DNA of 64,000 nucleotides. It comes from Zoroaster sp. YZ-2022. Taxonomy: Eukaryota > Echinodermata > Asteroidea > Forcipulatida > Zoroasteridae. This document shows positions 1,205-34,680 of this stretch, piece by piece. The position numbers were made by a program, and so were the translations under genes. Each line of letters starts with the position of its first letter. Positions within the stretch are counted from its first letter, which is position 1. The DNA is taken from assembly GCA_029582265.1 (NCBI GenBank), contig CM055816.1:86455314-86519313 (forward strand), in the 5' to 3' direction. Below the pieces are notes generated by a model that did no database searches, had not been told where the DNA came from, and saw only the letters and a list, made by a program, of their open reading frames with translations.

Positions 1205-2235
1205 ACTGGTGTGTTCAATTGCAGGCGACTCGAGTTCGAATCCAAGCAGCGCCACATTTCTTTTCAATTTTATATGGTTGCGCAATCACTTTAAGTAGTA
1301 TTAAATTCAACTCCAAATACCAACATGATTGGTGGTGCAAGATGTTTGTAAAACTGTAGGCCACCGTGGTTCGAATCCAGTAGCTACACTTTTCTTTTAT
1401 TTTGTATGGTTGCGCAATCACGATTGTTTATTTAGTATTAAATTATATTCCAAATACCAACAGGATAAACCCTTTCTTCTATAATGTTTTCGCTTCACTT
1501 TTCTTCAGGCTCAGTTTTATTTTCTATTGTTGATGGCACAAAGGGCACATAGTTTGCCAAAGTGCCAACAAAACCAACAACAACAACAACAGGATAAACG
1601 GCGCAAGCTGTTAGCCTAGTGGTATGTCAACTACAGACGTTTCAAGCCTGGTACGTGTGGGTTCGAATCCTGCTGTCTCCAAGAAGGATCCCATTAGAAT
1701 CCCATTGGCGGTACTATTTTATTTTTTTATTAATTAATTAATTAATTTATTTTATTAATTACACAATCAGTTTTCATTTATAAATACTAATAAATTCAAC
1801 TCACAATACCTGTAGGATTGCTGGCGCAAGCCATTGCCAATATATTTCGATGCAAGCGACCCGGATTCAAATCGTACTGGCCCCACTGTTTCATTTTAAA
1901 ATAATTACGCAATCACGTTTTATTTATAAGCAGTATTAAATTTAACGCCATTTAACAAGCGGATTGATGGCGCAATCTATTGGAACTGTGTTGCGAAAAA
2001 CAGTGGCGCCATTAGTTTAGTTTTTATTACGCAATCATGTTTTATTTATAAGTATTATTAAATTCAACTACACATACCAAGAGGGAATCTTGGCGCAATA
2101 CGGTGGTGCTGGGTTTCTGTGCAGGCGATCTGGGTTCGAAACCCAGTGGTGACAATGTTTTAGTTTTGAATGATTACGCAATCAAGATTTATTTAAGTAG
2201 TTTTAAATTCAAATCCGAATACCAACAGGATAAAT
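1205..2235 (+). repeat. Array of tRNA-like units, element A left arm
   Basis: About six to seven degenerate units of roughly 150 bp follow one another. Each has a tRNA-like part with GGCGCAA near the start (A-box-like) and GGTTCGAAnCC (B-box and T-loop-like). Each is followed by an AT-rich spacer containing ATTACGCAATCA and TTATTTATAAGTAGTATTAA. B-box-like cores lie near 1231, 1368, 1661, 1868 and 2133. The last full unit has a good T arm, CTGGGTTCGAAACCCAG. An insertion at about 1478-1595 interrupts the third unit. None has the paired stems of a functional tRNA, so they are tRNA-like repeats rather than tRNA genes. Confidence 0.7.
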
Positions 2236-2543
2236 GGCGCAAGCCGTTAGTCCACTGGTCTGTCAATTGCGGCAGTTCCAGGCTGGTACGTCCGGGTTCG
2301 AATCCTGCTCCTGAAACACAGAGACATGGCAGCTGCTGGCTGCGGCAATGGCTTGGGGACCGCCATGTCTCTCCCCTGAAGGTTAGAGCGTGGAGGAAAT
2401 GTACGGACGGGGGAGAAAAGGAGGGACCGGGAGGGTAGCGACCTCCCAGAAGGGTGCTAAGGTGATCACCATGCCGGGGTGTCCCGGACTTTGAGTCATC
2501 CTAATACCTGGTCGACACTCTGACTAACTCTCCGCACTTTTTT
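2236..2543 (+). ncRNA. Pol III-type unit (SINE-like), copy 1
   Basis: The unit begins with a tRNA-like head: an A-box-like stretch (GGCGCAAGCCGTTAGT) and an exact B box GGTTCGAATCC at 2295-2305. A G+C-rich body follows, with an 11-bp inverted repeat (AGAGACATGGC with GCCATGTCTCT), the hairpin GGGAGG/CCTCCC and CCGGG/CCCGG. It ends in TTTTTT at 2538-2543, the form of a Pol III terminator. Four copies exist (2236, 12599 minus, 27343, 34099 minus), all pointing into a satellite array. It could be a SINE or a structured RNA gene; transcription is inferred, not shown. Confidence 0.6.
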
Positions 2544-2700
2544 ACAATATATATATACAATAATTTATGTTATTATATTTTTGAGAGAGAGTGCAGATCT
2601 CAATTTTTTTGCAATACTGGTTTTAAATTTGTATAGACAATTGATCTCAAAATTATATGGAACGAAGTCCTGGATCAGTAGTGTACAGTAGTGTACAGTA
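2544..2700 (+). repeat. Unique junction between arm and satellite
   Basis: An AT-rich stretch includes TATATGGAACGAAGTCCTG and a run near GGTTTTAAATTTGTATAGAC. The same sequence, reverse-complemented, sits at 33553-33634 beside the right arm of element B. It is absent from the other arm of each element. The element therefore has a polarity despite its inverted arms. Confidence 0.65.
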
Positions 2701-5700
2701 ACAAGTTTCAACATTTTCCTTGAGGTGAACAGTTGGAATATGCGAAGCTTAACAGAAATGAAGATCTATGTCTGCAGCATACAACTTTTACCTATAGTTC
2801 TTCATAAAATATTGATTTTTTAAAAAGTTGGAAAGATAGGCGACTCAAATTACCACAAATGTGTTCTAGGCACTCTGTTACTTCTCTCCAGCAAGTATTA
2901 ATCATTTTGAAAAAATGTCATTTTTAGGCCAAATTTGGAAAAAAAACGACAAGGGTTAAGCATTGTCGTTTTTTTCACCTCGAAAAAAAAACGTCTCCGA
3001 TTCGCTTCAAATTTACACAGAATGAACCAATGTGTCTGCAGAATACAGCCACCAAGTTACAGCCTGTTTGGAAAAGTTTAAAATTTTGAAATTTTACCTA
3101 TATTTGTTCATAAAATATGGATTTTCTTAAAAAGTTGGAAAGATAGGCGACTCAAATGACCACAAATGTGTTCTAGGCACTCTGTTACGTCTCTCCAGCA
3201 AGTATTAATCATTTTGAAAAAATGTCATTTTTAGGCCAAATTTGGAAAAACCGACAAGGGGTAAGCATTGTCGTTTTTTTCACCTCGAAAAAAAATTGTC
3301 TCCGATTTGCTTCAAAATTACACAGAATGAACCGATGTGTCTGCAGAATACAGCCACCAACTTACAGCCTGTTTGGACAAGTTAAAAATTTTGAAATTTT
3401 ACCTATATTTGTTCATAAAATATGGATTTTCTTAAAAAGTTGGAAAGATAGGCGACTCAAATTACCACAAATGTGTTCTAGGCACTATGTTACGTCTCTC
3501 CAGCAAGTATTAATCATTTTGAAAAAATGTCATTTTTAGGCCAAATTTGGAAAAACCGACAAGGGGTAAGCATTGTCGTTTTTTTCACCTCGAAAAAAAA
3601 TTGTCTCCGATTTGCTTCAAAATTACACAGAATGAACCGATGTGTCTGCAGAATACAGCCACCAACTTACAGCCTGTTTGGACAAGTTTAAAATTTTGAA
3701 ATTTTACCTATATTTGTTCATAAAATATGGATTTTCTTAAAAAGTTGGAAAGATAGGCGACTCAAATTACCACAAATGTGTTCTAGGCACTATGTTACGT
3801 CTCTCCAGCAAGTATTAATCATTTTGAAAAAATGAAATTTTTAGGCCAAATTTGGAAAAAACGACAAGGGTAACGCATTGTCGTTTTTTTTACCTCGAAA
3901 AAAAATTGTCTCCGATTCGCTTCAAATTTACACAGAATGAACCAATGTGTCTGCAGAATACAGCCACCAAGTTACAGCCTGTTTGGAAAAGTTTAAAATA
4001 TTGATTTTCTTAAAAAGTTGGAAAGATAGGCGACTCAAATGACCACAAATGTGTTCTAGACACTCTGTTACTTCTCTCCAGCAAGTATTAATCATTTTGA
4101 AAAAAAATCATTTTTAGGCCAAATTTGGAAAAAACGACTAGGGGTTAGCATTGTCGTTTTTTTTACCTCGAAAAAAAATTGTCTCCGATTCGCTTCAAAT
4201 TTAGACAGAATGAACCAATGTGTCTGCAGAATACAGCCACCGAGTTACAGCCTATTTGGACTAGTTTAAAATTTCGTAATTTTACCCATATTTTTCATAA
4301 AATATTGATTTTCTTAAAAAGTTGGAATGATAGGCTACTCAAATTACGAAAAATGGGTTCTAGGCACTCTATTACGTCTCTCCAGCAAGTATCAAGAATT
4401 TTGAAAAAATGTCATTTTTAGGCCAAATTTGGAAAAAACGACAAGGGGTAGGCATTGTCGTTTTTTTTACCTCGAAAAAGAATTGTCTCCGATTCGCTTC
4501 AAATTTACACAGAATGAACCAATGTGTCTGCAGAATACAGCCACCGAGTTACAGCCTATTTGGACTAGTTTAAAATTTCGTAATTTTACCCATATTTTTC
4601 ATAAAATATTGATTTTCTTAAAAAGTTGGAATGACTCAAATTACGAAAAATGGGTTCTAGGCACTCTATTACGTCTCTCCAGCAAGTATCAAGAATTTTG
4701 AAAAAATGTCATTTTTAGGCCAAATTTGGAAAAAACGACAAGGGGTAAGCATTGTCGTTTTTTTCACCTCGAAAAAAAATTGTCTCCGATTCGCTTCAAA
4801 TTTACACAGAATGAACCAATGTGTCTGCAGAATACAGCCACCGAGTTACAGCCTATTTGGACTAGTTTAAAATTTCGTAATTTTACCCATATTTTTCATA
4901 AAATATTGATTTTCTTAAAAAGTTGGAATGATAGGCGACTCAAATTACGAAAAATGGGTTCTAGGCACTCTATTACGTCTCTCCAGCAAGTATCAAGCAT
5001 TTTGAAAAAATGTCATTTTTAGGCCAAATTTGGAAAAAACCACAAGGGGTTAGCATTGTCGTTTTTTTTACCTCGAAAAAAAATTGTCTCCGATTCGCTT
5101 CAAATTTACACAGAATGAACCAATGTGTCTGCAGAATACAGCCACCGAGTTACAGCCTATTTGGACTAGTTTAAAATTTCGTAATTTTACCCATATTTTT
5201 CATAAAATATTGATTTTCTTAAAAAGTTGGAATGATAGGCGACTCAAATTACGAAAAATAGGTTCTAGGCACTCTATTACGTCTCTCCAGCAAGTATCAA
5301 GAATTTTGAAAAAATGTCATTTTTAGGCCAAATTTGGAAAAAACAACAAAGGGGTAAGCATTGTCGTTTTTTTTTCAGCTCGAACAAAAATTGTCTCCGA
5401 TTCGCTTCAAATTTACACAGAATGAACCAATGTGTCTGCAGAATACAGCCACCGAGTTACAGCCTATTTGGACTAGTTTAAAATTTCGTAATTTTACCCA
5501 TATTTTTCATAAAATATTGATTTTCTTAAAAAGTTGGAATGACTCAAATTACGAAAAATGGGTTCTAGGCACTCTATTACGTCTCTCCAGCAAGTATCAA
5601 GAATTTTGAAAAAATGTCATTTTTAGGCCAAATTTGGAAAAAAACGACAAGGGGTAAGCATTCTCGTTTTTTTTCAGCTCGAAAAAAAATTGTCTCCGAT

Positions 5701-8700
5701 TCGCTTCAAATTTACACAGAATGAACCAATGTGTCTGCAGAATACAGCCACCGAGTTACAGCCTATTTGGACTAGTTTAAAATTTCGTAATTTTACCCAT
5801 ATTTTTCATAAAATATTGATTTTCTTAAAAAGTTGGAATGATAGGCGACTCAAATTACGAAAAATGGGTTCTAGGCACTCTATTACGTCTCTCCAGCAAG
5901 TATCAAGCATTTTGAAAAAATGTCATTTTTAGGCCAAATTTGGAAAAAACCACAAGGGGTAAGCATTGTCGTTTTTTTCACCTCGAAAAAAAATTGTCTC
6001 CGATTCGCTTCAAATTTACACAGAATGAACCAATGTGTCTGCAGAATACAGCCACCGAGTTACAGCCTATTTGGACTAGTTTAAAATTTCGTAATTTTAG
6101 CCATATTTTTCATAAAATATTGATTTTCTTAAAAAGTTGGAATGACTCAAATTACGAAAAATGGGTTCTAGGCACTCTATTACGTCTCTCCAGCAAGTAT
6201 CAAGAATTTTGAAAAAATGTCATTTTTAGGCCAAATTTGGAAAAAAACGACAAGGGGTAAGCATTCTCGTTTTTTTTCAGCTCGAAAAAAAATTGTCTCC
6301 GATTCGCTTCAAATTTACACAGAATGAACCAATGTGTCTGCAGAATACAGCCACCGAGTTACAGCCTATTTGGACTAGTTTAAAATTTCGTAATTTTACC
6401 CATATTTTCATAAAATATTGATTTTCTTAAAAAGTTGGAATGATAGGCGACTCAAATTACGAAAAATGGGTTCTAGGCACTCTATTACGTCTCTCCAGCA
6501 AGTATCAAGCATTTTGAAAAAATGTCATTTTTAGGCCAAATTTGGAAAAAACCACAAGGGGTTAGCATTGTCGTTTTTTTTACCTCGAAAAAAAATTGTC
6601 TCCGATTCGCTTCAAATTTACACAGAATGAACCAATGTGTCTGCAGAATACAGCCACCGAGTTACAGCCTATTTGGACTAGTTTAAAATTTCGTAATTTT
6701 ACCCATATTTTTCATAAAATATTGATTTTCTTAAAAAGTTGGAATGATAGGCGACTCAAATTACGAAAAATGGGTTCTAGGCACTCTATTACGTCTCTCC
6801 AGCAAGTATCAAGAATTTTGAAAAAATGTCATTTTTAGGCCAAATTTGGAAAAAACGACAAGGGGTAAGCATTGTCGTTTTTTTTCAGCTCGAAAAAAAA
6901 TTGTCTCCGATTCGCTTCAAATTTACACAGAATGAACCAATGTGTCTGCAGAATACAGCCACCGAGTTACAGCCTATTTGGACTAGTTTAAAATTTCGTA
7001 ATTTTACCCATATTTTTCATAAAATATTGATTTTCTTAAAAAGTTGGAATGATAGGCTACTCAAATTACGAAAAATGGGTTCTAGGCACTCTATTACGTC
7101 TCTCCAGCAAGTATCAAGAATTTTGAAAAAATGTCATTTTTAGGCCAAATTTGGAAAAAACGACAAGGGGTAGGCATTGTCGTTTTTTTTACCTCGAAAA
7201 AGAATTGTCTCCGATTCGCTTCAAATTTACACAGAATGAACCAATGTGTCTGCAGAATACAGCCACCGAGTTACAGCCTATTTGGACTAGTTTAAAATTT
7301 CGTAATTTTACCCATATTTTTCATAAAATATTGATTTTCTTAAAAAGTTGGAATGATAGGCGACTCAAATTACGAAAAATGGGTTCTAGGCACTCTATTA
7401 CGTCTCTCCAGCAAGTATCAAGAATTTTGAAAAAATGTCATTTTTAGGCCAAATTTGGAAAAAACGACAAGGGGTAAGCATTGTCGTTTTTTTTACCTCG
7501 AAAAAAAATTGTCTCCGATTCGCTTCAAATTTACACAGAATGAACCAATGTGTCTGCAGAATACAGCCACCGAGTTACAGCCTATTTGGACTAGTTTAAA
7601 ATTTCGTAATTTTACCCATATTTTTTCATAAAATATTGATTTTCTTAAAAAGTTGGAATGATAGGCGACTCAAATTACGAAAAATGGGTTCTAGGCACTC
7701 TATTACGTCTCTCCAGCAAGTATCAAGAATTTTGAAAAAATGTCATTTTTAGGCCAAATTTGGAAAAAACGACAAGGGTTACCCCTTGTCGTTTTTTTTC
7801 AGCTCGAAAAAAAATTGTCTCCGATTCGCTTCAAATTTACACAGAATGAACCAATGTGTCTGCAGAATATAGCCACCGAGTTACAGCCTATTTGGACTAG
7901 TTTAAAATTTCGTAATTTTACCCATATTTTTCATAAAATATTGATTTTCTTAAAAAGTTGGATTGATAGGCGGCTCAAATTACGAAAAATGGGTTCTAGG
8001 CACTCTATTACGTCTCTCCAGCAAGTATCAAATATTTTGAAAAAATGTTATTTTTAGGCCAAATTTGGAAAAAACGACAAGGGGTAAGCATTGTCGTTTT
8101 TTTTCAGCTCGAAAAAAAATTGTCTCCGATTCGCTTCAAATTTACACAGAATGAACCAATGTGTCTGCAGAATACAGCCACCGAGTTACAGCCTATTTGG
8201 ACTAGTTTAAAATTTCGTAATTTTACCCATATTTTTCATAAAATATTGATTTTCTTAAAAAGTTGGAATGATAGGCGACTCAAATTACGAAAAATGGGTT
8301 CTAGGCACTCTATTACGTCTCTCCAGCAAGTATCAAGAATTTTCAAAAAAATGTCATTTTTAGGCCAAATTTGGAAAAAACGACAAGGGGTTGTTAGCAT
8401 TGTCGTTTTTTTTCAGCTCGAAAAAAAATTGTCTCCGATTCGCTTCAAATTTACACAGAATGAACCAATGTGTCTGCAGAATATAGCCACCGAGTTACAG
8501 CCTATTTGGACTAGTTTAAAATTTCGTAATTTTACCCATATTTTTCATAAAATATTGATTTTCTTAAAAAGTTGGATTGATAGGCGACTCAAATTACGAA
8601 AAATGGGTTCTAGGCACTCTATTACGTCTCTCCAGCAAGTATCAAGCATTTTAAAAAAATGTTATTTTTAGGCCAAATTTGGAAAAAACGACAAGGGGTA

Positions 8701-11700
8701 AGCATTGTCGTTTTTTTTTCAGCTCGAAAAAAAATTGTCTCCGATTCGCTTCAAATTTACACAGAATGAACCAATGTGTCTGCAGAATACAGCCACCGAG
8801 TTACAGCCTATTTGGACTAGTTTAAAATTTCGTAATTTTACCCATATTTTTCATAAAATATTGATTTTCTTAAAAAGTTGGAATGATAGGCGACTCAAAT
8901 TACGAAAAATGGGTTCTAGGCACTCTATTACGTCTCTCCAGCAAGTATCAAGCATTTTGAAAAAATGTCATTTTTAGGCCAAATTTGGAAAAAACGACAA
9001 GGGTTAGCATTGTCGTTTTTCAGCTCGAAAAAAGTGTCTCCGATTCGCTTCAAATTTACACAGAATGAACCAATGTGTCTGCAGAATATAGCCACCGAGT
9101 TACAGCCTATTTGGACTAGTTTAAAATTTCGTAATTTTACCCATATTTTTCATAAAATATTGATTTTCTTAAAAAGTTGGATTGATAGGCGACTCAAATT
9201 ACGAAAAATGGGTTCTAGGCACTCTATTACGTCTCTCCAGCAAGTATCAAATATTTTGAAAAAATTTCATTTTTAGGCCAAATTTGGAAAAAACGACAAG
9301 GGGTAAGCATTGTCGTTTTTTTTCAGCTCGAAAAAAAATTGTCTCCGATTCGCTTCAAATTTACACAGAATGAACCAATGTGTCTGCAGAATACAGCCAC
9401 CGAGTTACAGCCTATTTGGACTAGTTTAAAATTTCGTAATTTTACCCATATTTTTCATAAAATATTGATTTTCTTAAAAAGTTGGAATGATAGGCGACTC
9501 AAATTACGAAAAATGGGTTCTAGGCACTCTATTACGTCTCTCCAGCAAGTATCAAGAATTTTGAAAAAATGTCATTTTTAGGCCAAATTTGGAAAAAACG
9601 ACAAGGGGTAAGCATTGTCGTTTTTTTCACCTCGAAAAAATTATTCGATTAGCTTCAAATTTACACAGAATGAACCAATGTGTCTGCAGAATACAGCCAC
9701 CGAGTTACAGCCTATTTGGACTAGTTTAAAATTTCGTAATTTTACCCATATTTTCATAAAATATTGATTTTCTTAAAAAGTTGGAATGATAGGCGACTCA
9801 AATTACGAAAAATGGGTTCTAGGCACTCTATTACGTCTCTCCAGCAAGTATCAAGCATTTTGAAAAAATGTCATTTTTAGGCCAAATTTGGAAAAAACGA
9901 CAAGGGGTTGTTAGCATTGTCGTTTTTTTTCAGCTCGAAAAAAAATTGTCTCCGATTCGCTTCAAATTTACACAGAATGAACCAATGTGTCTGCAGAATA
10001 TAGCCACCGAGTTACAGCCTATTTGCACTAGTTTAAAATTTCGTAATTTTACCCATATTTTTCATAAAATATTGATTTTCTTAAAAAGTTGGATTGATAG
10101 GCGACTCAAATTACGAAAAATGGGTTCTAGGCACTCTATTACGTCTCTCCAGCAAGTATCAAGCATTTTGAAAAATGTTATTTAGGCCAAATTTTGGAAA
10201 AACGACAAGGGTAAGCATTCTCGTTTTTTTAGCCTCGAAAAAAATTGTCTCCGATTCGCTTCAAATTTACACAGAATGAACCAATGTGTCTGCAGAATAT
10301 AGCCACCGAGTTACAGCCTATTTGGACTAGTTTAAAATTTCGTAATTTTACCCATATTTTTCATAAAATATTGATTTTCTTAAAAAGTTGGATTGATAGG
10401 CGACTCAAATTACGAAAAATGGGTTCTAGGCACTCTATTACGTCTCTCCAGCAAGTATCAAATATTTTGAAAAAATGTCATTTTTAGGCCAAATTTGGAA
10501 AAAACGACAAGGGGTAGGCATTGTAGTTTTTTTGACCTCTTTAAATAGTGTCTCCGATTCGCTTCAAATTTACACAGAATGAACCAATGTGTCTGCAGAA
10601 TATAGCCACCGAGTTACAGCCTATTTGCACTAGTTTAAAATTTCGTAATTTTACCCATATTTTTCATAAAATATTGATTTTCTTAAAATGTTGGAATGAT
10701 AGGCGACTCAAATTACGAAAAATGGGTTCTAGGCACTCTATTACGTCTCTCCAGCAAGTATCAAGCATTTTGAAAAAATGTCATTTTTAGGCCAAATTTG
10801 GAAAAAACGACAAGGGGTTAGCATTGTCGTTTTTTTTCAGCTCGAAAAAAAATTGTCTCCGATTCGCTTCAAATTTACACAGAATGAACCAATGTGTCTG
10901 CAGAATATAGCCACCGAGCTACAGCCTATTTGGACTAGTTTAAAATTTCGTAATTTTACCCATATTTTTCATAAAATATTGATTTTCTTAAAAAGTTGGA
11001 TTGATAGGCGACTCAAATTACGAAAAATGGGTTCTAGGCACTCTATTACGTCTCTCCAGCAAGTATCAAATATTTTGAAAAAATGTCATTTTTAGGCCAA
11101 ATTTGGAAAAAACGACAAGGGGTAAGCATTGTCGATTTTTTTACCTCGAAAAAAAATTGTCTCCGATTCGCTTCAAATTTACACAGAATGAACCAATGTG
11201 TCTGCAGAATACAGCCACCGAGTTACAGCCTATTTGGACTAGTTTAAAATTTCGTAATTTTACCCATATTTTTCATAAAATATTGATTTCTCTAAAAAGT
11301 TGGAATGATAGGCGACTCAAATTACGAAAAATGGGTTCTAGGCACTCTATTACGTCTCTCCAGCAAGTATCAAGCATTTTGAAAAAATGTCATTTTTAGG
11401 CCAAATTTGGAAAAAACGACAAGGGGTTGTTAGCATTGTCGTTTTTTTTCAGCTCGAAAAAAAATTGTCTCCGATTCGCTTCAAATTTACACAGAATGAA
11501 CCAATGTGTCTGCAGAATATAGCCACCGAGTTACAGCATATTTGCACTAGTTTAAAATTTCGTAATTTTACCCATATTTTTCATAAAATATTGATTTTCT
11601 TAAAAAGTTGGATTGATAGGCGACTCAAATTACGAAAAATGGGTTCTAGGCACTCTATTACGTCTCTCCAGCAAGTATCAAGCATTTTGAAAAAATGTTA

Positions 11701-12285
11701 TTTTTAGGCCAAATTTGGAAAAAACGACAAGGGGTAAGCATTGTCTTTTTTTTTACCTCGAAAAAAAATTGTCTCCGATTCGCTTCAAATTTACACAGAA
11801 TGAACCAATGTGTCTGCAGAATACAGCCACCGAGCTACAGCCTATTTGGACTAGTTTAAAATTTCGTAATTTTACCCATATTTTTCATAAAATATTGATT
11901 TTCTTAAAAAGTTGGAATGATAGGCGACTCAAATTACGAAAAATGGGTTCTAGGCACTCTATTACGTCTCTCCAGCAAGTATCAAGCATTTTGAAAAAAT
12001 GTCATTTTTAGGCCAAATTTGGAAAAAACGACAAGGGGTAAGCATTGTCGTTTTTTTCACCTCGAAAAAAAATTGTCTCCGATTCGCTTCAAATTTACAC
12101 AGAATGAACCAATGTGTCTGCAGAATACAGCCACCGAGTTACAGCCTATTTGGACTAGTTTAAAATTTCGTAATTTTACCCATATTTTTCATAAAATATT
12201 GATTTTCTTAAAAAGTTGGAATGATAGGCGACTCAAATTACAAAAAATGGGTTCTAGGCACTCTATTAAGTCTCTCCAGGAAATT
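2700..12285 (+). repeat. Satellite array A, monomer about 303 bp, about 31 copies
   Basis: Head-to-tail monomers of 302-306 bp recur, each with the landmarks TTGTCTCCGATTCGCTTC, TGTCTGCAGAATACAGCC, ATAAAATATTGATTTTC, GGCACTCTATTACGTCTC and TTTTTAGGCCAAATTTGG. Monomers from about 4130 on are very alike. The leftmost four or five are more diverged (for example TACCACAAATGTGTTC where the core has TACGAAAAATGGGTTC), and one near 4000 has a deletion. Each monomer carries a frame of 80-105 codons that always stops at the TAG in TTTTTAGGCC. These frames repeat only because the monomers are homogenised; they are not annotated as genes. Confidence 0.95.
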
Positions 12286-12290
12286 ATTGT

Positions 12291-12599
12291 AAAAAAGTGC
12301 GGAGAGTTAGTCAGAGTGTCGACCAGGTATTAGGATGACTCAAAGTCCGAGACACCCCGGTATGGTGATCACCTTAGCACCCTTCTGGGAGGTCGCTACC
12401 CTCCCGGTCCCTCCTTTTCTCCCCCGTCCGTACATTTCCTCCACGCTCTAACCTTCAGGGGAGAGACATGGCGGTCCCCAAGCCATTGCCGCAGCCAGCA
12501 GCTGCCATGTCTCTGTGTTTCAGGAGCAGGATTCGAACCCGGACGTACCAACCTGGAACTCCCGCAATTGACAGACCAGTGGACTAACGGCTTGCGCCA
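12291..12599 (-). ncRNA. Pol III-type unit (SINE-like), copy 2, inverted
   Basis: This is the inverted partner of the unit at 2236-2543, nearly identical to it. On the minus strand it has the A-box-like head (complement of 12591-12598), the B box (complement of 12529-12539), the same G+C-rich body and a T6 run (complement of 12291-12296). The T-run end abuts the last satellite monomer, so this copy faces copy 1 across the array. Confidence 0.6.
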
Positions 12600-13830: not shown

Positions 13831-14041
13831 TCTTCTGAACAGGTTTACTCTGAAACAGTAATTAAAAAATATATCAATTACATAAATTAGCAGATAATTA
13901 ATAAGGGCCAAATTGATTTAAATTAATCATTTAAATTAGTTAATTTTAATTACATAAAATTGTGATTGAGTCCATCCCAGGTTCCCTGCCCCGAAACCCA
14001 GCGACACCTTCTTGATTATGTATTATGCCACTACGCTTTAA
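13831..14041. other. Unassigned AT-rich spacer
   Basis: AT-rich sequence with repeated TTAAATTA-like words. No gene or transposon end was recognised. Confidence 0.5.
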
Positions 14042-14048
14042 TAATAAT

Positions 14049-14128
<80 letters not shown>
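14042..14128 (+). repeat. (AAC)n microsatellite
   Basis: About 28 uninterrupted AAC units, with short AAT units at each end. The poly-Thr, poly-Leu and poly-Val frames across it are artefacts of the repeat. Confidence 0.97.
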
Positions 14129-14129
<1 letters not shown>

Positions 14130-15776: not shown

Positions 15777-16067
15777 TGTGCAATTTTATGAAGGTTCTGT
15801 TTTGACAGTTTATTGTACACGCATTTCCTTTCTAAGGTAATTAAGAAACTGAAATAAACATTCAGAAAAGATGTCAAAAGATAACTGTGATTGCACATGA
15901 ATTGCTTACATTTTTATTACAGTTATGATTTTGATAATGTTATACCATTTGAGAATGATCTTGATTAAGATATGGTTAATTTTAAACTGTAAAATAAATG
16001 TTAAAGTTGTCTCCAAAATAACTAACACTGCTTCGTAGAAAAGAGAAATTAAGTAATTCTTAATAGT

Positions 16068-17039: not shown

Positions 17040-17055
17040 ATTAACTCCATATAAA

Positions 17056-19633: not shown

Positions 19634-19755
19634 CTGAATAAGAATCACACATAAGGGTAAATGAATCAAGTTTAGACTCTGCAGAGGAAGTTAACAAAAT
19701 GTTAACCCAGCAAGTTTTAGGCATAAAAAAAAAAATTTGATTCAAAGTACTAAAA

Positions 19756-20955: not shown

Positions 20956-20959
20956 TAGA

Positions 20960-22470: not shown

Positions 22471-23541
22471 TTTGAGATTTCCATGTTACCATATAGAGCA
22501 TTTTCTCTACATTTTGATGGAAAAAGAAAATCCTGAAACGTTGTTGGTAACATTGTTTCACAATAAATTTGGGAGGTCACTTTTGAAAATTGGGTCCAAG
22601 TTTAGGGTTTTGCAGAGCCAGTCACATCTGGCTTTTTGAAAACCAGATGAAACACTTAATGATCTGCTCTCTTTATTAGAGGAACAAATCACATAAACAC
22701 AACGAAGGAACCCACTCATACAAAATGGACACATTACAACTGTTTGGAAAACATCAATTATCCAAAAATAAGATAGGAGACAATCCGGTTCTAACTTCTA
22801 TTGAACCAGTACTTGCAACTGATTGCCCGCAATTGATGAGGCATGAAAGCTTACAATGTAGCTATTGTATTGCTACCAAGGATCTGAAAAAATATCCCGT
22901 CTCTTCAACATATTTCCCCTTTTATGACCAAAAATAGGCCTACCTGTAAACAAAAGGTCAACTATTCCCACAAACTATATTGTCAAACTGACAAACAACG
23001 GAAATAGTCAGTTACGGACCCATATCATCTTGTATGAAAAATACAATTTGAAAAACAAATCAACAAAGATGTAGTGTCACTGAATGGGATTGCATGTACC
23101 ATTATTTTTCACTCAAATCTGATGTTTAAACAATTCTTTTAAACAAAAACTCCTGTGACAGCCACTGTTAGGCCACCTTTCACGTCAGCTTTTAGAAATA
23201 CCAATTTTAAGACACGAGAAATATTACAGGACACCGAAAAACTTACGAAAACCCACATGGCACAAACCCATTGTGACTCCCCCACAATACTCATGAACGA
23301 TCCAAAAGGCAAAACAAAAACACTGAGGAACCACACGAAATATAATTTCGTGGGCAAGCATCATCGGAACACAAAACTAAATAGTAAATGTCTGTGGCAA
23401 ATTTTATGCCAACAGTGTATGACTGTTAAGAATAATGTTATTTGTTCTACTTACGAAGATATTGTGACACAAAACCATGCAACAAAGACAGTTCAAGGAT
23501 GGGATTGCAACGACGCGTCGGGACATGAATCACGTAACCAT
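22471..23541. other. No gene recognised
   Basis: A 130-codon open frame at 23155-23547 has no recognisable domain and no splice context. Part of the stretch may be the unreadable 3' end of the Penelope-like element. Confidence 0.45.
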
Positions 23542-23738
23542 ACATAAGCCTTATCGCTAATAGCAGCCGCAAGGAATTGTGGGATGTCTGTGGGCGCAAC
23601 AGCGCCATTGCGTGCCGCGCGGACAAACAAAATATTATTCACGCAAAAGCTGCGCCAAACAGATGCCCCTTTTTGTATCACTGTATGCTTTGCGGCAGTT
23701 GCTTCAGTGCTCTTGATCTTTAGCGATAAGGCTTATGT
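23542..23738. mobile_element. MITE of 197 bp with 19-bp perfect terminal inverted repeats
   Basis: The left end ACATAAGCCTTATCGCTAA (23542-23560) and the right end TTAGCGATAAGGCTTATGT (23720-23738) are perfect reverse complements. The interior is G+C-richer than the surroundings. No clear target-site duplication was found, so the superfamily is not assigned. Confidence 0.75.
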
Positions 23739-25229
23739 GCACGGCACCGCACCGTGTGGTTTTCGGATACAGCACGAAGTGACTGTGTGTGATTTTCGGA
23801 TATAGCGCGAAGTGACACATGGCAGTGTCCCGGCTGCGAAATTAACACCAATTGAGAATCCTATTCCACAGTGGTAACAGGAAGGATTCCGAAAATGCGT
23901 GGTGCGTCAATTGGGAAAAAGTGTAGGCTTTTCGTTAATATTCGTTTCGTCATCTGCGTTTTAGTTCGAAAAATACCTCGAAAAAAACATCATTCCGGTG
24001 GTAGAAAAAAATGGCATCAAGTTGATTTGGATGCTTCATAGTTTGAAGAATAATTCATTAAATTTTCAAAGATTGTACACGAAGTTGCATATGGGGACTT
24101 TTTAAAGAAAATTCTTAATGCGTTTTCACTATTTTCTCGTTAAAAAACACAATGAAATTATCTGCAAAATTTATACGTTGGTTTCTGTACATATTTCTTG
24201 ACTTCTTGATCGTGAAGTACAGATGTATATACATTCATTATAATAATTTTAGAATGGGAAGAATAACTGACATAACCGGAATGAAGAATTTACTCTGTCA
24301 TGTCGAAGTCCACATCAACCGAATGTATTCAAAGCAAATTTGATAATTGGAACTCCCAGCGCTGGTGACACTAGCGATGAATCCTCCTGTCCCCGTTCCC
24401 AACTTCCTCCATCGTCTTACGGTTTCTGGTGGATACAATCAGGTGTATAACCAAAAAGGGCTTGACCCTTTCACGAGACGAATATGAGTTGCTTGTTATC
24501 CTGAATCCTACCCTCCCCGATCGACAATTAAGCTGAATGGAAATAGATGAATTGGTTTCCCATCCCTGTTAAAAATGCACGAAAAAGAAACAACATTCTG
24601 CTCATATAAAACATGCCAAACACCGCCACCGCCCCACCTGAAGCCTTCATCACCCCATTAACAACCCCATTTAAACCCCAAAGGTCCACTACTCAACCTC
24701 CCGGCCAAAGCTAAAATCTACTTCAGATATTGTAGTTCGAAAGGTAGGCCTATTATACGGGAGATATCCTGAGAGTGCCGTCCACTAGTGGGACACTCTC
24801 TGTGTTTGACGGCACGGCCTGTGTCACAATCACGCTGGTTGGAAATTCACGGAAAACTTCACCGGAACCGTCCCATATTATAGCGATGTCCAATGAATAC
24901 TGTGGTATGATTTATTTTGAAACAAATCAGATAATTATTGAATATGTTTGACATATTATTCTTTAAAAAAAACACAGACAAGAGATAGCAGTAACAATGG
25001 TAAAATCGTTTTACTATTTTACAAAAATTGAGGCTCGAGGATAGTTGTGTAGTTATTTGTTCTCAAAACAATTATCATATTTTTAATCGAAGAAGGCCCT
25101 TTTGCACAATCTATCTATATCAAATGTTACCTTGAGCAGAATACATTTTAGTTTATTACGCTTTAGTTAATATTGTTTTTCCCATGTTAATTATTTACGC
25201 GATTTTATTACATAACGTTGCACATGTGA
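23739..25229. other. No gene recognised; short direct repeat inside
   Basis: A direct repeat (TTTTCGGATA then GCGAAGTGAC, two copies) lies at about 23758-23816. The rest, including the C-rich stretch near 24630-24720 and the stretch near 24770-24880, shows no exon I can support. Confidence 0.5.
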
Positions 25230-27342
25230 GAGTGATTGGCGGCCCCAATTGATAGCATGTTGGGTTTCAGCTGCAGGGTGAAAGAGCATCAGTTCGAATC
25301 CTGCAGTTGTCTTTGTGGACCTCCGTTTTCTTTTTGCGTAATTACCATTCATAAATTTCAAATATATTAAATTGAACGCAACACGAATCGGTCGCGTAAG
25401 TCACTAGTGCACTGGTTTGATCAATCGCAAACAGTTCCACTTTTATGGAATCCTGCTCGTGACCTTTTTAATTTTTATTTGTTTGACCAATGGTTGTTGT
25501 CTTCATTGAATCTCCAATCATTCCTATTAAATATAAGATGAAGCAACAGTTTAATGGTTAAGGCGCAAGACCTTGGTACAGCTGACTCTGGTTCCAACAG
25601 TGTCATGACGCTTTTCTTTTTAATTTTCAATGGTTACACAATCACGATTTATTTAAGTAATTTAAAATACAACACCAGATTCCAACAACATAGGTGGCGC
25701 AAGCCGTTAGTACACTGGTTTGATATATTTAAAATAAAATAAATTAAGCAATCACATTTTATTTATAAGTAGTATTAACTTCATCACCATTTACCCAGAG
25801 GATTGGTGGCGCAATCTACTGCGTGGCGCAATCTACTGCGTGGCGCAATCTACTGGTGGCGCAATCTACTGCGGTCCAGGCGAACCGGGTTAAAAAAAGA
25901 ACCGGGCGCCATTTCTTTAATTTTAAATAATTACGCAATCCTGTTTTATTTATACTAGTATTAAATTCAATTACATGTACCAAGAGGAATCTTGGCGCAA
26001 TACAGTGGTACTGGGTTTTGGTGCAGGAGACCTGGGATCGAAACACAGTGGCAACAATGTTTTAGTTTTGAATGATTACGCAATCAAGATTTATTTAAGT
26101 AGTTTTAAATTCAACACCAGATACAAACAGGATAGTTGGTGCAAGCCGGTAGTACACTGGAAAGTTCAATCAGTACATTTCTAGGCTGGTACGTCTGGCA
26201 GTTCGAACCCCTATTAGAAAGTTCTTGTGTTTTATTTTGACCAATGCTTGTTGCTAGCAATAAATCTCCAATCATTCACATTACATGGCAGATAACCAAC
26301 GGTCTAATGTTAAGGCGCCAAAGTTTGGAACAAGAGAATCCCAGAACTGGTCCGCCGCATTTTTTTCCATTTTAAGTGGTTTTGCTTTCACGGTTTAGAA
26401 TTAAATTCAACTCTAAATCGAATTAAATTCAAACCTAAATATCAAAAGGATTGGTGTCGCAATCCATTAGTATTGAGTTTCAATGCAAGCGACCCGAGTT
26501 CGAATCCTACTTGTCCTAATGTTATATTTTTAATTAATTACGCAATCACGTTTTATTTATAAGTAGTATTAAATTCATACACATATACCAAGAGGAATCG
26601 TGGCGCAATTCAGTGGTACTGGGTTTCGGTGCAAGAGACCTGGGTTCGAAACCCAATGGCCACGGTGTTTTCGTTTTGAATGATTACGCAATCACGTTTT
26701 ATTAATAAGTAGTATTAAATTCAACGCCATTTAAACAGAGGATTAGTGGCGCAATCTGTTGGCACTGTGTTGCGGTTCAGGCGAACCGGGTTCGAAAAAG
26801 CACCGGGTTCGAAACACTTTGGCACCATTATTTTAGTATTAAATAATTACGCAATCACGTTTTATTTATAAGTAGTATTGAATTCAACTTCACGTAACAA
26901 GAGCAATCATAGCGCAATCCAGTGTTACTGGGTTTCGGTACAGGACAACTGGGTTCGAAACCAAGTGCCAACAATGTTTTCGTTTTGAATGATTACGCAA
27001 TCACGTTTTATTTATCAGTAGTATTAAATTCGTCATTTACCAAGAGGATTGGTAGCTCAATCTGTGACCGCTGTGGTACGGTCCAGGCGAACCGGGTTCG
27101 AAACACTTTGGCGCCATTGCTTTAGTTTTAAATAATTACGCAATCACGTTTTATTTATAAGTAGTATTGAATTGAACTGCACATACCAAGAGGAATCTTG
27201 GCGCAATCCAGTGGTACTGGGTTTCGGTGCAGGAGACCTGGGTTCGAAACCCAGTGGCCACAATGTTTTAGTTTTGAATGATTACGCAATCAAGATTTAT
27301 TTAAGTAGTTTTAAATTCAACCCAAATACCAACAGGATAAAT
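25230..27342 (+). repeat. Array of tRNA-like units, element B left arm
   Basis: About 13 degenerate units. B-box/T-loop cores are clear near 25290, 26035, 26200, 26500, 26647, 26790, 26807, 26955, 27105 and 27243, with spacing of 138-160 bp in the inner half. Units near 26647 and 27243 keep a strong T arm (CTGGGTTCGAAACCCA). Near 25806-25870 the start of one unit (TGGCGCAATCTACTG) is repeated four times. Spacers hold ATTACGCAATCACG and TTTATAAGTAGTATTAAATT. Confidence 0.7.
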
Positions 27343-27648
27343 GGCGCAAGCCGTTAGTCCACTGGTCTGTCAATTGCGGCAGTTCCAGGCTGGTACGTCC
27401 GGGTTCGAATCCTGCTCCTGAAACACAGAGACATGGCAGCTGCTGGCTGCGGCAATGGCTTGGGGACCGCCATGTCTCCCCTGAAGGTTAGAGCGTGGAG
27501 GAAATGTACGGACGGGGGAGAAAAGGAGGGACCGGGAGGGTAGCGACCTCCCAGAAGGGTGCTAAGGTGATCACCATGCCGGGGTGTCACGGACTTTGAG
27601 TCATCCTAATACCTGGTCGACACTCTGACTAACTCTCCGGACTTTTTT
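27343..27648 (+). ncRNA. Pol III-type unit (SINE-like), copy 3
   Basis: Almost identical to copies 1 and 2. It has GGCGCAAGCCGTTAGTCC at the start, the B box GGTTCGAATCC near 27402, the 11-bp inverted repeat around ACATGGC, and T6 at 27643-27648. It differs by a 2-bp contraction in CATGTCTCCCC and a few substitutions. It points into satellite array B. Confidence 0.6.
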
Positions 27649-27651
<3 letters not shown>

Positions 27652-27729: not shown

Positions 27730-30700
27730 TATTTCAAAATGCTTGATATTTGCTGGAGAGACGTAATAGAGTGCCTAGAACCCATTTGAGTCGCCTATCA
27801 TTCCAACTTTTTAAGAAAATCAATATTTTATGAAAAATGTGGGTAAAATTACGAAATTTTAAACTAGTCCAAATAGGCTGTAACTCGGTGGCTGTATTCT
27901 GCAGACACATTGGTTCATTCTGTGTAAATTTGAAGCGAATCGGAGACAAATTTTTTTTCGAGGTGAAAAAACGACAATGCTTACCTTGTGGTTTTTCCAA
28001 ATTTGCTAAAAAATGACATTTTTCAAAATGCTTGATACTTGCTGGAGAGACGTAATAGAGTGCCTAGAACCCATTTTTCGTAATTTGAGTCGCCTATCAT
28101 TCCAACTTTTTAAGAAAATCAATATTTTATGACAAATATGGGTAAAATTACGAAATTTTAAACTAGTCCAAATAGGCTGTAACTCGGTGGCTGTATTCTG
28201 CAGACACATTGGTTCATTCTGTGTAAATTTGAAGCGAATCGGAGACAATTTTTTTTTCGAGGTGAAAAAAAACGACAATGCTTACCCCTTGTCGTTTTTT
28301 CCAAATTTGGCCTAAAAATGACATTTTTTCAAAATGCTTGATACTTGCTGGAGAGACGTAATAGAGTGCCTAGAACCCATTTTTCGTAATTTGAGTCGCC
28401 TATCATTCCAACTTTTTAAGAAAATCAATATTTTATGAAACATATGGGTAAAATTACGAAATTTTAAACTAGTCCAAATAGGCTGTAACTCGGTGGCTGT
28501 ATTCTGCAGACACATTGGTTCATTCTGTGTAAATTTGAAGCGAATCGGAGACAAATTTGTTTCGAGGTGAAAAAAACGACAATGCTTACCCCTTGTGGTT
28601 TTTTCCAAATTTGGCCTAAAAATGACATTTTTTCAAAATGCTTGATACTTGCTGGAGAGACGTAATAGAGTGCCTAGAACCCATTTTTCGTAATTTGAGT
28701 CGCCTATCATTCCAACTTTTTAAGAAAATCAATATTTTATGAACAAATATGGGTAAAATTACGAAATTTTAAACTAGTCCAAATAGGCTGTAACTCGGTG
28801 GCTGTAATAGAGTGCCTAGAACCCATTTTTCGTAATTTGAGTCGCCTATCATTCCAACTTTTTAAGAAAATCAATATTTTATGAAAAATATGGCTAAAAT
28901 TACGAAATTTTAAACTAGTCCAAATAGGCTGTAACTCGGTGGCTGTATTCTGCAGACAAATTGGTTCATTCTGTGTAAATTTGAAGCGAATCGGAGACAA
29001 ACTTTTTTCGAGGTGAAAAAAAACGACAATGCTTACCCCTTGTCGTTTTTTCCAAATTTGGCCTAAAAATGACATTTTTTCAAAATGCTTGATACTTGCT
29101 GGAGAGACGTAATAGAGTGCCTAGAACCCATTTTTCGTAATTTGAGTCGCCTATCATTCCAACTTTTTAAGAAAATCAATATTTTATGAAACATATGGGT
29201 AAAATTACGAAATTTTAAACTAGTCCAAATAGGCTGTAACTCGGTGGCTGTATTCTGCAGACACATTGGTTCATTCTGTGTAAATTTGAAGCGAATCGGA
29301 GACAAATTTGTTTCGAGGTGAAAAAAACGACAATGCTTACCCCTTGTGGTTTTTTCCAAATTTGGCCTAAAAATGACATTTTTTCAAAATGCTTGATACT
29401 TGCTGGAGAGACGTAATAGAGTGCCTAGAACCCATTTTTCGTAATTTGAGTCGCCTATCATTCCAACTTTTTAAGAAAATCAATATTTTATGAACAAATA
29501 TGGGTAAAATTACGAAATTTTAAACTAGTCCAAATAGGCTGTAACTCGGTGGCTGTAATAGAGTGCCTAGAACCCATTTTTCGTAATTTGAGTCGCCTAT
29601 CATTCCAACTTTTTAAGAAAATCAATATTTTATGAAAAATATGGCTAAAATTACGAAATTTTAAACTAGTCCAAATAGGCTGTAACTCGGTGGCTGTATT
29701 CTGCAGACACATTGGTTCATTCTGTGTAAATTTGAAGCGAATCGGAGACAAACTTTTTTCGAGGTGAAAAAACGACAATGCTTACCCCTTCGTTTTTTTC
29801 CCAAATTTGGCCTAAAAATGACATTTTCAAAATGCTTGATACTTGCTGGTGAGACGTAATAGAGTGCCTAGAACCCATTTTTCGTAATTTGAGTCGCCTA
29901 TCATTCCAACTTTTTAAGAAAATCAATATTTTATGAAAAATATGGGTAAAATTACGAAATTTTAAACTAGTCCAAATAGGCTGTAACTCGGTGGCTGTAT
30001 TCTGCAGACACATTGGTTCATTCTGTGTAAATTTGAAGCGAATCGGAGACAAACTTTTTTCGAGGTGAAAAAAAACGACAATGCTTACCTTGTCGTTTTT
30101 CCAATTTGGCCTAAAAATGACATTTTTTCAAAATGCTTGATACTTGCTGGAGAGACGTAATAGAGTGCCTAGAACCCATTTTTCGTAATTTGAGTCGCCT
30201 ATCATTCCAACTTTTTAAGAAAATCAATATTTTATGAAACATATGGGTAAAATTACGAAATTTTAAACTAGTCCAAATAGGCTGTAACTCGGTGGCTGTA
30301 TTCTGCAGACACATTGGTTCATTCTGTGTAAATTTGAAGCGAATCGGAGACAATTTTTTTTTCGAGGTGAAAAAACGACAATGCTACCCTTTGTGGTTTT
30401 TTTCCCAAATTTGGGCCTAAAAATGACATTTTTCAAAATGCTTGATACTTGCTGGAGAGACGTAATAGAGTGCCTAGAACCCATTTTTCGTAATTTGAGT
30501 CGCCTATCATTCCAACTTTTAAGAAAATCAATATTTTATGAAAAATATGGGTAAAATTACGAAATTTTAAACTAGTCCAAATAGGCTGTAACTCGGTGGC
30601 TGTATTCTGCAGACAAATTGGTTCATTCTGTGTAAATATGTAGCGAATCCGAGACAAACTTTTTCGGGTGAAAAAAACGACAATGCTTACCCTTGTCGTT

Positions 30701-33552
30701 TTTTCCAAATTTGGCTCAAAATGACATTTTTTCAAAATGCTTGATACTTGCTGGAGAGACGTAATAGAGTGCCTAGAACCCATTTTTCGTAATTTGAGTC
30801 GCCTATCATTCCAACTTTAAGAAAATCAATATTTTATGAAAATATGGGTAAAATTACGAAATTTTAAACTAGTCCAAATAGGCTGTAACTCGGTGGCTGT
30901 ATTCTGCAGACACATTGGTTCATTCTGTGTAAATTTGAAGCGAATCGAGACAATTTGTTTCGAGGTGAAAAAACGACAATGCTTACCTTGTGGTTTTTTC
31001 CAAATTTATTTAAAATGACATTTTTTCAAAATGCTTGATACTTGCTGGAGAGACGTAATAGAGTGCCTAGAACCCATTTTCGTAATTTGAGTCGCCTATC
31101 ATTCCAACATTTTAAGAAAATCAATATTTTATGAAAAATTATGGTAAAATTACGAAATTTTAAACTAGTCCAAATAGGGTTGTAACTCGGTGGCTGTATT
31201 CTGCAGACAACATTGGTTCATTCTGTGTAAATTTGAAGCGAATCGGAGACATTTTTTTCGAGGTGAAAAAAACGACAATGCTTACCCCTTGTCGTTTTTT
31301 CCAAATTTGGCCTAAAAATGACATTTTTTCAAAATGCTTGATACTTGCTGGAGAGACGTAATAGAGTGCCTAGAACCCATTTTTCGTAATTTGAGTCGCC
31401 TATCATTCCAACTTTAAAAAAAAATCAATATTTTATGAAAAATATGGGTAAAATTACGAAATTTTAAACTAGTCCAAATAGGCTGTAACTCGGTGGCTGT
31501 ATTCTGCAGACACATTGGTTCATTCTGTGTAAATTTGAAGCGAATCGGAGACAATTTTTTTTCGAGGTGAAAAAAACGACAATGCTTACCCTTGTCGTTT
31601 TTTCCAAATTTTTTAAAAAATGACATTTTTCAAAATGCTTGATACTTGCTGGAGAGACGTAATAGAGTGCCTAGAACCCATTTTTCGTAATTTGAGTCGC
31701 CTATCATTCCAACTTTTTAAGAAAATCAATATTTTATGAAACATATGGGTATACGAAATTTTAAATAAACATAACTCGGTGGCTGTATTCTGCAGACATT
31801 TTAAAGATCGAGAACAAATTTGTTTCGAGGTGAAAAAAAACACAATAGGCCTAAAAATGACATTTTTTCAAAATGCTTGATACTCTGGATGGTGCCTAGA
31901 ACCCATTTTTCGTAATTTGACTGCAGACATTGGTTCAACTTTTAGAAAATCAATATTTTATGAAAATATGGCTAAGTACGAAATTTTAAACAGTCCAAAT
32001 TTCAGTGGCTGTGTATTCTGCAGACAAATTGGTTCATTCTGGAGTTTTTTTTCGAGGTGAAAAAAAAAAACGACAATGCCGTTGTCGTTTTTCCAAATTT
32101 GCTAAAAATGACATTTTCAAATGCTTGATACTTGCTGGAGAGACGTAATAAGGTGCCTAGAACCCATTTTTCGTAATTTGGTCGCCTATCATTCCAACTT
32201 TAAAAAAATCAATATTTTATGAAAAATATGGGTAAGAGTACGAATTTTAAACTAGTCCAAATAGGCTGTAACTCGGTGGCTGTATTCTGCAGACACATTG
32301 GTTCATTCTGTGTAAATTTGAAGCGAATCGGAGACAATTTTGTTTCGAGGTGAAAAACGACAATACTTTTGTGTCGTTTTCCAAATTTAACCCTAAAAAT
32401 GACATTTTTTTCAAAATGCTTGATACTTGCTGGAGAGACGTAATAGAGTGCCTAGAACCCATTTTTCGTAATTTGAGTCGCCTATCATTCCAACTTTTAA
32501 GAAAATCAATATTTTATGAAAAATATGGGTAAAATTACGAAATTTTAAACTAGTCCAAATAGGCTGTAACTCGGTGGCTGTATTCTGCAGACACATTGGT
32601 TCATTCTGTGTAAATTTGAAGCGAATCGGAGACAATTTTTTTTTCGAGGTGAAAAAAACGACAATGCTTACCCCTTGTCGTTTTTTCCAAATTTGGCCTA
32701 AAAATGACATTTTTTCAAAATGCTTGATACTTGCTGGAGAGACGTAATAGAGTGCCTAGAACCCATTTTTCGTAATTTGAGTCGCCTATCTTTCCAACTT
32801 TAAAAAAAAATCAATATTTTATGAAAAATATGGGTAAAATTACAAAATTTTAAACTAGTCCAAATAGGCTGTAACTCGGTGGCTGTATTCTGCAGACACA
32901 TTGGTTCATTCTGTGTAAATTTGAAGCGAATCGGAGACAAATTTGTTTCGAGGTGAAAAAAACGACAATGCTTACCCCTTGTGGTTTTTCAAGCAACAGC
33001 CTAAAAATGACATTTTTTCAAAATGCTTGATACTTGCTGGAGAGACGTAATAGAGTGCCTAGAACCCATTTTTCGTAATTTGAGTCGCCTATCTTTCCAA
33101 CTTTTTAAGAAAATCAATATTTTATGAACAAATATGGGTAAAATTACGAAATTTTAAACTAGTCCAAATAGGCTGTAACTCGGTGGCTGTATTCTGCAGA
33201 CACATTGGTTCATTCTGTGTAAATTTGAAGCGAATCGGAGACAATTTTTTTTCGAGGTGAAAAAAAACGACAATGCTTACCCCTTGTCTTTTTTTTTCCA
33301 AATTTGGCCTAAAAATGACATTTTTTCTAAATTCTTGATACTTGCTGGAGAGACGTAATAGAGTGCCTAGAACCCATTTTTCGTAATTTGAGTCGCCTAT
33401 CATTCCAACTTTTTAAGAAAATCAATATTTTATGAAAAATATGGGTAAAATTACGAAATTTTAAACTCGTCCAAATAGGCTGTAACTCGGTGGCTGTATT
33501 CTGCAGACACATAGGTTCATTCTGTGTAAATTTGAAGCGAATCAGAGACGTC
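27730..33552 (-). repeat. Satellite array B, monomer about 302 bp, about 19 copies
   Basis: Same satellite as array A, reverse-complemented (GAGACGTAATAGAGTGCC, GGCTGTATTCTGCAGACAC, GAAGCGAATCGGAGACAA). Monomers at 28800 and 29550 are fused halves, where GGTGGCTGT runs straight into AATAGAGTGCC. Together with neighbours they form a block of about 751 bp that is repeated (28312-29062 and 29063-29813). Between about 30360 and 32400 the monomers carry many small insertions and deletions, and several near 31740-32100 are badly shortened. Confidence 0.93.
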
Positions 33553-33634
33553 TTTTTTTACACTACCAATGCAGGACTTCGTTCCATGTAATTTAGACAG
33601 TTAAGTGTCTATAAAACCAAAAAAAAATTATTAT
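33553..33634 (-). repeat. Junction between satellite B and right arm
   Basis: Reverse-complemented, it matches the junction of element A (GGTTTTATAGACA and CATGGAACGAAGTCCTG). It is shorter than in A. It marks the same satellite end in both elements. Confidence 0.65.
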
Positions 33635-34099
33635 AAAAAAGTGCGGAGAGTTAGTCAGAGTGTCGACCAGGTATTCGGATGACTCAAAGTCCGGGCGAAC
33701 CGGCATGGTGATCACCTTAGCACCCTTCTGGGAGGTCACTACCCTCCCGGTCCCTCCTTATTCTCCCCCGCCCGTACATTTCCTCCACGCTCTAACCTTT
33801 AGGGGAGAGACATGGCGGTCCCCAAGCCATCGCCGCAGCCAGCAGCTGCTGGCATGTCTCTATGTGTCAGGAGCAGGATTCGAACCCGGACGTACCAGCC
33901 TGGAACTGCCGCAATTGACAGCCCAGTGGACTAACGGCTTGCGGCTTGCGGCTTGCGGCTTGCGGCTTGCGGCTTGCGGCTTGCGGCTTGCGGCTTGCGG
34001 CTTGCGGCTTGCGGCTTGCGGCTTGCGGCTTGCGGCTTGCGGCTTGCGGCTTGCGGCTTGCGGCTTGCGGCTTGCGGCTTGCGGCTTGCGGCTTGCGCC
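33635..34099 (-). ncRNA. Pol III-type unit (SINE-like), copy 4, with internal heptamer expansion
   Basis: Minus-strand copy with the B box (GGATTCGAACC on the plus strand, near 33886), the same G+C-rich body and T6 (complement of 33635-33640). The A-box region, which reads GGCTTGCG on the plus strand, has expanded into about 23 heptamers, pushing the natural start out to 34099. The expansion separates or multiplies the A box, so promoter function is doubtful in this copy. Confidence 0.55.
33936..34097 (+). repeat. (GGCTTGC)n heptanucleotide array, about 23 copies
   Basis: Perfect tandem heptamers arose from the A-box segment of the Pol III-type unit. The unexpanded copies read CTAACGGCTTGCGCC at this place. 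Repetitive leucine/alanine frames across it are artefacts. Confidence 0.97.
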
Positions 34100-34680
34100 A
34101 TTTATCCTGTTGGTATTTGGATAAGAATTTAATACTACTTAAATAAACCATTTTGATAAAATTAAAAAGAAATATGGCGTTGCCGGGGCTCGAACCCGTT
34201 TGAAATGCAATTAAACAGACCCATAGACTAACGGGTTGCGCCACCAATCCTTTTGGTATACTGAGGTGAATTTAATACTACTTAAACCATCATGATTGCG
34301 CAATCATGTAAAATGAAAAAAAAAAGTGGGGATGCCGGGGTTCGAACCCATGTAGACTGCAATTTAACAGACCAGTAGACTAACGGCTTGCGCCACCAAT
34401 CCTGTTGGTATACGGAGGTGAATTTAATACTACTTAAACCATCATGATTGCGCAATCATGTAAAATGAAGGGAAAAATGTGGTGATGCCGTGGTTCGAAC
34501 CCATGTTGACTGCAATTGGACAGACCATTAGACTAACGGCTTGCGCCACCAGTCCTATTGGTATTTGGAGTCAAATTTTAAACTACTTAAATTAATGTGT
34601 TTTTGCAACCATTTAAAATTTAAAATATTTGCGTCCATAGGATTCGAACCAGTGTCCCGAATTAACAAACACAGCATTAA
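34100..34680 (-). repeat. Array of tRNA-like units, element B right arm
   Basis: Four minus-strand units have cores near 34192, 34341, 34496 and 34640 (CTCGAACCC, TTCGAACCC, TTCGAACCC, TTCGAACC), spaced about 150 bp. The first three share GACTAACGGnTTGCGCCACC and spacers with ATGATTGCGCAATCATG, so they look like recent tandem copies of one unit. They differ from the units next to the satellite in element A. Confidence 0.7.

Follow-up and report, generated by a model that had tools for sequence, protein, structure and literature searches.

How does satellite DNA move between chromosomes? This old question is raised by a 64,000-nucleotide stretch of the genome of Zoroaster sp. YZ-2022 (C1:86455314-86519313 of its own genome assembly of 1.0 Gb and 616 contigs; hereafter the window), which contains two arrays of ~304-bp satellite monomers, S1 and S2, with inverted arms on both sides of each. 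Each arm consists of several ~146-bp units and one 311-bp inner unit, and an earlier sequence-only reading of the window had proposed that the satellite travels in a mobile or amplifying structure, with the arms as possible ends used in transposition. We consider it likely, with a probability of about 0.8, that the arm-satellite-arm cassette lies inside a large DNA transposon (class II), of which the arms are internal parts and not the mobile ends. This transposon would show one way in which a satellite changes chromosomes.

The anatomy and coordinates given by the sequence-only reading, two satellites within inverted arms, are right, as TRF, nhmmer and the inverted match of the arms agree. 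TRF detected a period of 304 to 306 over 2786-12279 (S1) and over 27732-33549 (S2), and nhmmer with one monomer placed a + strand array at 2786-12284 and a − strand array at 27731-33559. S1 is a head-to-tail tandem array of long monomers, as is S2, and both are satellite DNA in that sense. The arms of S1 match each other in inverted orientation over 466 nt at 97% (2084-2549 vs 12285-12750), and a T6 run follows the inner unit in each of the four window arms. Within S2, positions 28358-29999 have a higher-order period of 446 bp, made of a full monomer and a partial one.

Because S1 and S2 both lie within 34 kb, they could be a single local duplication with no element family behind it. A monomer search of the genome gave 405 matches; apart from the window, the 150 listed ones cover about 27 places. 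We then examined the surroundings of 12 further satellite arrays, chosen among the best matches of a single monomer and therefore biased to young copies. Both arms are present in nine (C20:6.97, C20:7.59, C21:8.19, C15:28.24, C9:4.68, C21:2.50, the second array at C18:19.07, C5:44.99 and C1:88.02), although the middle of the C5:44.99 array is inferred solely from monomer-search matches; a single arm is present in three (the first array at C18:19.07, C21:13.56 and C22:12.49). The two C20 arrays belong to one inverted segmental duplication of 20 kb (98.8%), which includes the element and its flanks, and the C18:19.06 Mb insertion holds a second array, one-armed, within it. Satellite arrays without arms elsewhere had been named as what would speak against an element family, and the 12 arrays leave that family standing. 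Since copies of the same anatomy are dispersed across the genome, on other contigs with different flanks and with target duplications, the local duplication is refuted, and we give it practically no weight.

The junction between core and satellite gives a similar picture. Among the 56 listed matches that reach the inner unit (of 150 listed out of 631 matches), 18 pairs face inward at distances of 1.2 to 7.5 kb, no outward-facing pair occurs within 15 kb, and 20 matches have no partner. In a genome search with the inner unit, the best 40 of 1315 candidates were scored and all are 98 to 100% identical. One 23-base pattern of the inner unit had no match in viral contigs.

Where, then, does the mobile unit end? 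The copies stay alike far beyond the arms, out to short ends, and therefore the arms are not the mobile ends. On the B side, the likeness among copies stops at a single point, ...GTTTTGCCATATAAGGGCCG, beyond which each locus differs. The A-end is its inverted counterpart, CGGCCCTTCCATGGCAAAACAGCC, at which copies begin at C21:8171606, C18:19042299 (one changed base) and C5:45014409. The ends of the transposon are thus the short inverted CGGCCCTT..ATGGCAAAACAGCC, with inverted terminal repeats of ~53 bp at both ends that are 82 to 85% alike. All three copies with both ends intact have an exact 4-bp target duplication:

C21:8171606: copy of 22,819 bp, target duplication CGCT/CGCT
C18:19042299: copy of 38,647 bp, target duplication ACCA/ACCA
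C5:45014409: copy of 32,818 bp, target duplication AGCA/AGCA

In the 22.8-kb copy, the ends lie beyond the arms: it is ~2.5 kb from the outermost B unit to the B-end and ~13 kb from the outermost A unit to the A-end. Hence, the proposal of a mobile, amplifying structure that carries the satellite is supported by dispersed arm-satellite-arm copies, shared ends and target duplications; the sequence-only reading had asked for outer ends and target duplications to be defined, and both were found in these three copies. Its suggestion that the arms themselves serve as transposition ends is rejected, as the likeness between copies continues past them to the short inverted repeats. A LINE-like element, fixed at one end and ragged at the other, was considered and dropped once the inverted A-end and the target duplications had been found. 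A Penelope origin was rejected as well, because the reverse transcriptase and GIY-YIG pieces are confined to a stretch of one copy and are absent from the window; they belong to a nested Penelope-like insert in the C21:2.51 Mb copy (L030:1003-3928), present partly twice in inverted orientation.

The family is young, with nearly identical copies on many contigs. Outside the cassette, five of the fetched copies differ from the 22.8-kb reference copy by 0.3 to 0.8% substitutions in alignments of >1 kb. When the final 400 bp of the B side served as query, a genome search gave 152 candidates, of which the best 40 were scored; all are 99 to 100% identical, and they lie on 19 contigs. A listed inner-unit or satellite match occurs within 12 kb on the inner side of 23 of the 40 scored B-ends and on the outer side of one. 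In the remaining 17, we examined 80 bases at 4.44 to 4.52 kb inside the end, which are inner unit in six (one on only 23 bases) and satellite in two. The cassette is therefore inside in 31 of the 40 scored B-ends (one on the 23-base match). The 400-bp query itself (L014:5941-6340) contains direct repeats ~70 bp apart that are 77% alike.

The transposon also holds a candidate for the protein that moves it, a DUF7869 frame of 515 aa with three invariant Asp. The predicted model of this protein resembles the cores of Mos1 (a mariner transposase), Metnase and integrases, so that its predicted fold is like that of RNase H-like (DDE-type) recombinase cores and makes it a candidate transposase. The sea urchin Diadema setosum has the best named relative (50% identity), and further ones occur in the brittle star Amphiura filiformis and several insects. 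DUF7869 proteins are listed as uncharacterised in echinoderms and insects and have no functional name in Pfam; these hitherto uncharacterised proteins thereby gain a testable role.

From these observations and the structural model, we propose that the DUF7869 protein would cut the outer ends and insert the whole 23- to 39-kb unit, with the satellite and its arms riding along. Within the unit, the inverted arms and the tandem monomers may recombine with each other, which would give arrays of variable length, flipped satellite orientation and hybrid arms. Several features of the arrays bear on this second step. Clustering of 145 monomers gave two main subfamilies, a (90 monomers) and b (46 monomers); b dominates both S1 and S2 in the window, while a dominates the other copies. 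At C21:8.19 and C15, a few reverse-oriented b monomers adjoin the B arm, and the arms at C18:19.06 Mb are hybrids of A-type outer and B-type inner units. The mixture and orientation of the subfamilies and the hybrid arms therefore suggest recombination between inverted arms and within arrays. Because the family is young and has defined ends, target duplications and a candidate transposase, satellite dispersal, array growth and inversion can be traced in it copy by copy.

What are the two arrays of the window in terms of this transposon? The four arms there are of two types, young (A and B) and older (X and Y), and they are arranged with the other features as follows (146-bp unit arrays, inner units and diverged satellite pieces as placed by nhmmer):

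1054..1194, − strand: diverged satellite piece outside arm X
1205..2545, + strand: older outer arm X, B-box-bearing units (146-bp unit array 1210-2231, +) and inner 311-bp unit (2233-2545, +); matches the C1:88.02 Mb element's right arm at 94% (560 bp)
2786..12284, + strand: satellite array S1, ~304-bp monomers, the first four of type a, the rest mostly of type b
12289..13740, − strand: young A arm, inner 311-bp unit (12289-12601, −) and units (146-bp unit array 12603-13693, −)
13741..23074, − strand: A-side body of the young transposon copy, aligned to C21, C18, C9, C15 and other copies
19740..19939, + strand: diverged satellite piece within the A-side body
23543..23737, no strand: stretch like a miniature inverted-repeat transposable element, with the inverted pair CATAAGCCTTATCGCTA at its borders, where the A-side and B-side bodies join
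23725..25562, + strand: B-side body, which stops ~680 bp before the transposon B-end
25563..27650, + strand: young B arm, units (146-bp unit array 25563-27338, +) and inner 311-bp unit (27340-27650, +)
27731..33559, − strand: satellite array S2, ~304-bp monomers, mostly of type b
33634..34660, − strand: older outer arm Y, inner 311-bp unit (33634-33945, −) and units (146-bp unit array 34104-34659, −); arm and outward flank together match the C1:88.02 Mb element's left arm at 79% (1,230 bp)
35052..35591, + strand: diverged satellite pieces outside arm Y

In the unit of arm Y that adjoins the inner unit, TRF found an expansion of CGGCTTG (x23, 33935-34097).

The right arm of S1 is thus the young A arm and the left arm of S2 is the young B arm, and the A-side body (to 23074) and the B-side body (from 23725) meet between the two arrays, where other sequence has been inserted and deletions have occurred. 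The young copy in the window lacks the gene region and both transposon ends. At its outer sides, a junction segment is common to X, Y and both C1:88.02 arms and was not seen at the four A/B junctions compared, and the four monomers that adjoin X have the same subfamily and orientation as those of the C1:88.02 element. We infer, at somewhat better than even odds, that the young copy in the window is permuted and end-less and sits in the satellite of an older element of the arm-satellite-arm kind. The two cases of the sequence-only reading are, then, not two complete copies; the best reading makes them the halves of one young, permuted copy within an older one. The young copy would have been opened inside its satellite and would now sit within the satellite of the older element; the simplest route may be an excised circle or a permuted fragment that recombined via satellite homology, with the joined ends and the gene lost. 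Two observations count against the nested part: no a-type monomers adjoin Y, and it is b, not a, that adjoins the A arm in S1. A rather unlikely alternative dispenses with circle and nesting and has two neighbouring truncated copies in tandem, one without its B-end and the other without its A-end and gene, whose arms were exchanged by satellite recombination. Such copies would account for the inserted sequence and deletions where the A and B bodies meet, and the hybrid arms at C18 show that arms do recombine; under this explanation, however, both outer arms must have been replaced by older ones that match the two arms of one element.

Several results weigh against placing the cassette inside the transposon, or against parts of that placement. 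One-armed arrays make up 3 of the 12. A fourth two-ended copy (C21:2.49), the one with the nested Penelope-like insert, has a changed A-end, and only three of the four flanking bases are the same on both sides. No A-end occurs in the sequence fetched for six copies (C15, C9, C20 twice, C21:13.56 and C22). At the probe point, 7 of the 40 scored B-ends have unrelated sequence, one is partly masked with B body, and one is a compact copy with no cassette there. Plain Foldseek of the DUF7869 model against the PDB gave 396 matches at E≤10 and none at E≤0.001. Finally, the older arms X and Y and those of C1:88.02 have no similarity to the A or B body.

This last point touches on the origin of the cassette. 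It may have begun as an older, foldback-like element, mobile or amplifying, which got into the DUF7869 transposon a single time and was carried by it thereafter, an explanation that is compatible with the carrier transposon and that we rate a little below even. It fits the older arms X and Y and those of the C1:88.02 Mb element, which enclose satellite without a detectable A or B body and whose outer units differ by 14 to 30% from those of A and B while the inner unit is 92 to 95% alike. It also fits the compact copy at C1:83.14 Mb (probed at C1:83141279-83141358), in which sequence of the gene side, near the A-end, lies 4.4 kb from the B-end. However, no ends or target duplications of the cassette's own were found, and the compact copy may be a deletion. 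A bolder and quite improbable idea is that the cassette is a working part of the transposon: inverted unit arrays would drive growth and flipping of the satellite, and excised circles would re-enter via satellite homology, giving a second route of spreading that seeds satellite arrays. If so, the permuted copy in the window would be a trace of that homology-based route.

The arms had been described as tRNA-like arrays with Pol III-type units, a description that stands for motifs and fails for structure, leaving it weak overall. Over 5,908 nt of arm sequence, we counted the B-box-like GTTCGAA 25 times in sense and 3 times in antisense (shuffled mean 0.41), and this strong sense enrichment, with the T6 run after the inner unit, is what one would expect if functional Pol III genes of a tRNA-like or SINE-like type bordered the satellite in arrays. 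Yet ARAGORN found no tRNA in the window arms, the Rfam tRNA model matched none of the arms at E≤1 and neither S2 arm at E≤10, no consensus fold was found across 19 units, and T-arm pairs and covariation were not above shuffles. Moreover, in 36 units drawn from three loci (window, C15 and the left arm of C1:88), conservation is higher in the spacer (0.85) than in the tRNA-like half (0.77). We therefore consider such genes very unlikely and reject a functional tRNA or tRNA-derived SINE for want of fold and model match; the arm units are best named B-box-bearing tandem units, with "tRNA-like" applied to their motifs only. The best-conserved spacer of the 146-bp units contains the near-palindrome TGATTRCGCAATCA. 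The unit spacer (for example, window 27193-27338) also holds TGATTACGCAATCA / TGATTGCGCAATCA, which presumably recalls a C/EBP-type site.

Among known systems, foldback elements have long inverted repeats of tandem units as their termini, and Helitrons have neither terminal inverted repeats nor a target duplication. Both inverted ends and target duplications are present here, which excludes a Helitron. The closest known system is Tetris, a foldback transposon of Drosophila virilis described in PMC4079207 as having 220-bp tandem units in its terminal inverted repeats, satellite-like arrays, 8-10 bp duplications, complete copies without conserved ORFs and many rearranged copies. The carrier transposon shares with it the class of DNA transposon, inverted repeats of tandem units, satellite-like array growth and rearranged copies. 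Unlike in Tetris, the inverted arrays are internal, the duplications are 4 bp long, the transposon holds a gene, and the satellite between the arms has a sequence of its own; terminal tandem-repeat arms and 8-10 bp duplications being absent, a Tetris-type foldback element is rejected. The same source names foldback elements of sea urchins and Drosophila. Such elements are alike in their long inverted repeats of tandem units and differ in that these repeats are their termini, while here the termini are short and far outside the arms. Sola2 transposons, as described in PMC3627910, have short terminal inverted repeats and, in some families, 4-bp AT-rich duplications (AWWT and similar); compared by ends and duplications alone, the lengths agree and the duplicated sequences (CGCT, ACCA and AGCA) do not. 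PMC12628747 describes how arrays inside transposons grow into satellites, the common example being Helitrons/Helentrons. Its cases likewise hold and spread tandem arrays, whereas the carrier here has inverted ends and target duplications and keeps its satellite between long inverted arrays. In the titles and abstract openings covered, with subscription journals mostly outside that coverage, we found no report of a transposon of this kind that encloses a satellite between internal inverted arrays.

Outside the cassette, the window contains tandem repeats at 46513-46942, 53836-54375 and 59219-59437, with periods of 63, 59 and 44 bp, respectively. ARAGORN predicts a tRNA-Leu(caa) at 53349-53430, and the same place appears below threshold as tRNA-Sec in Rfam.
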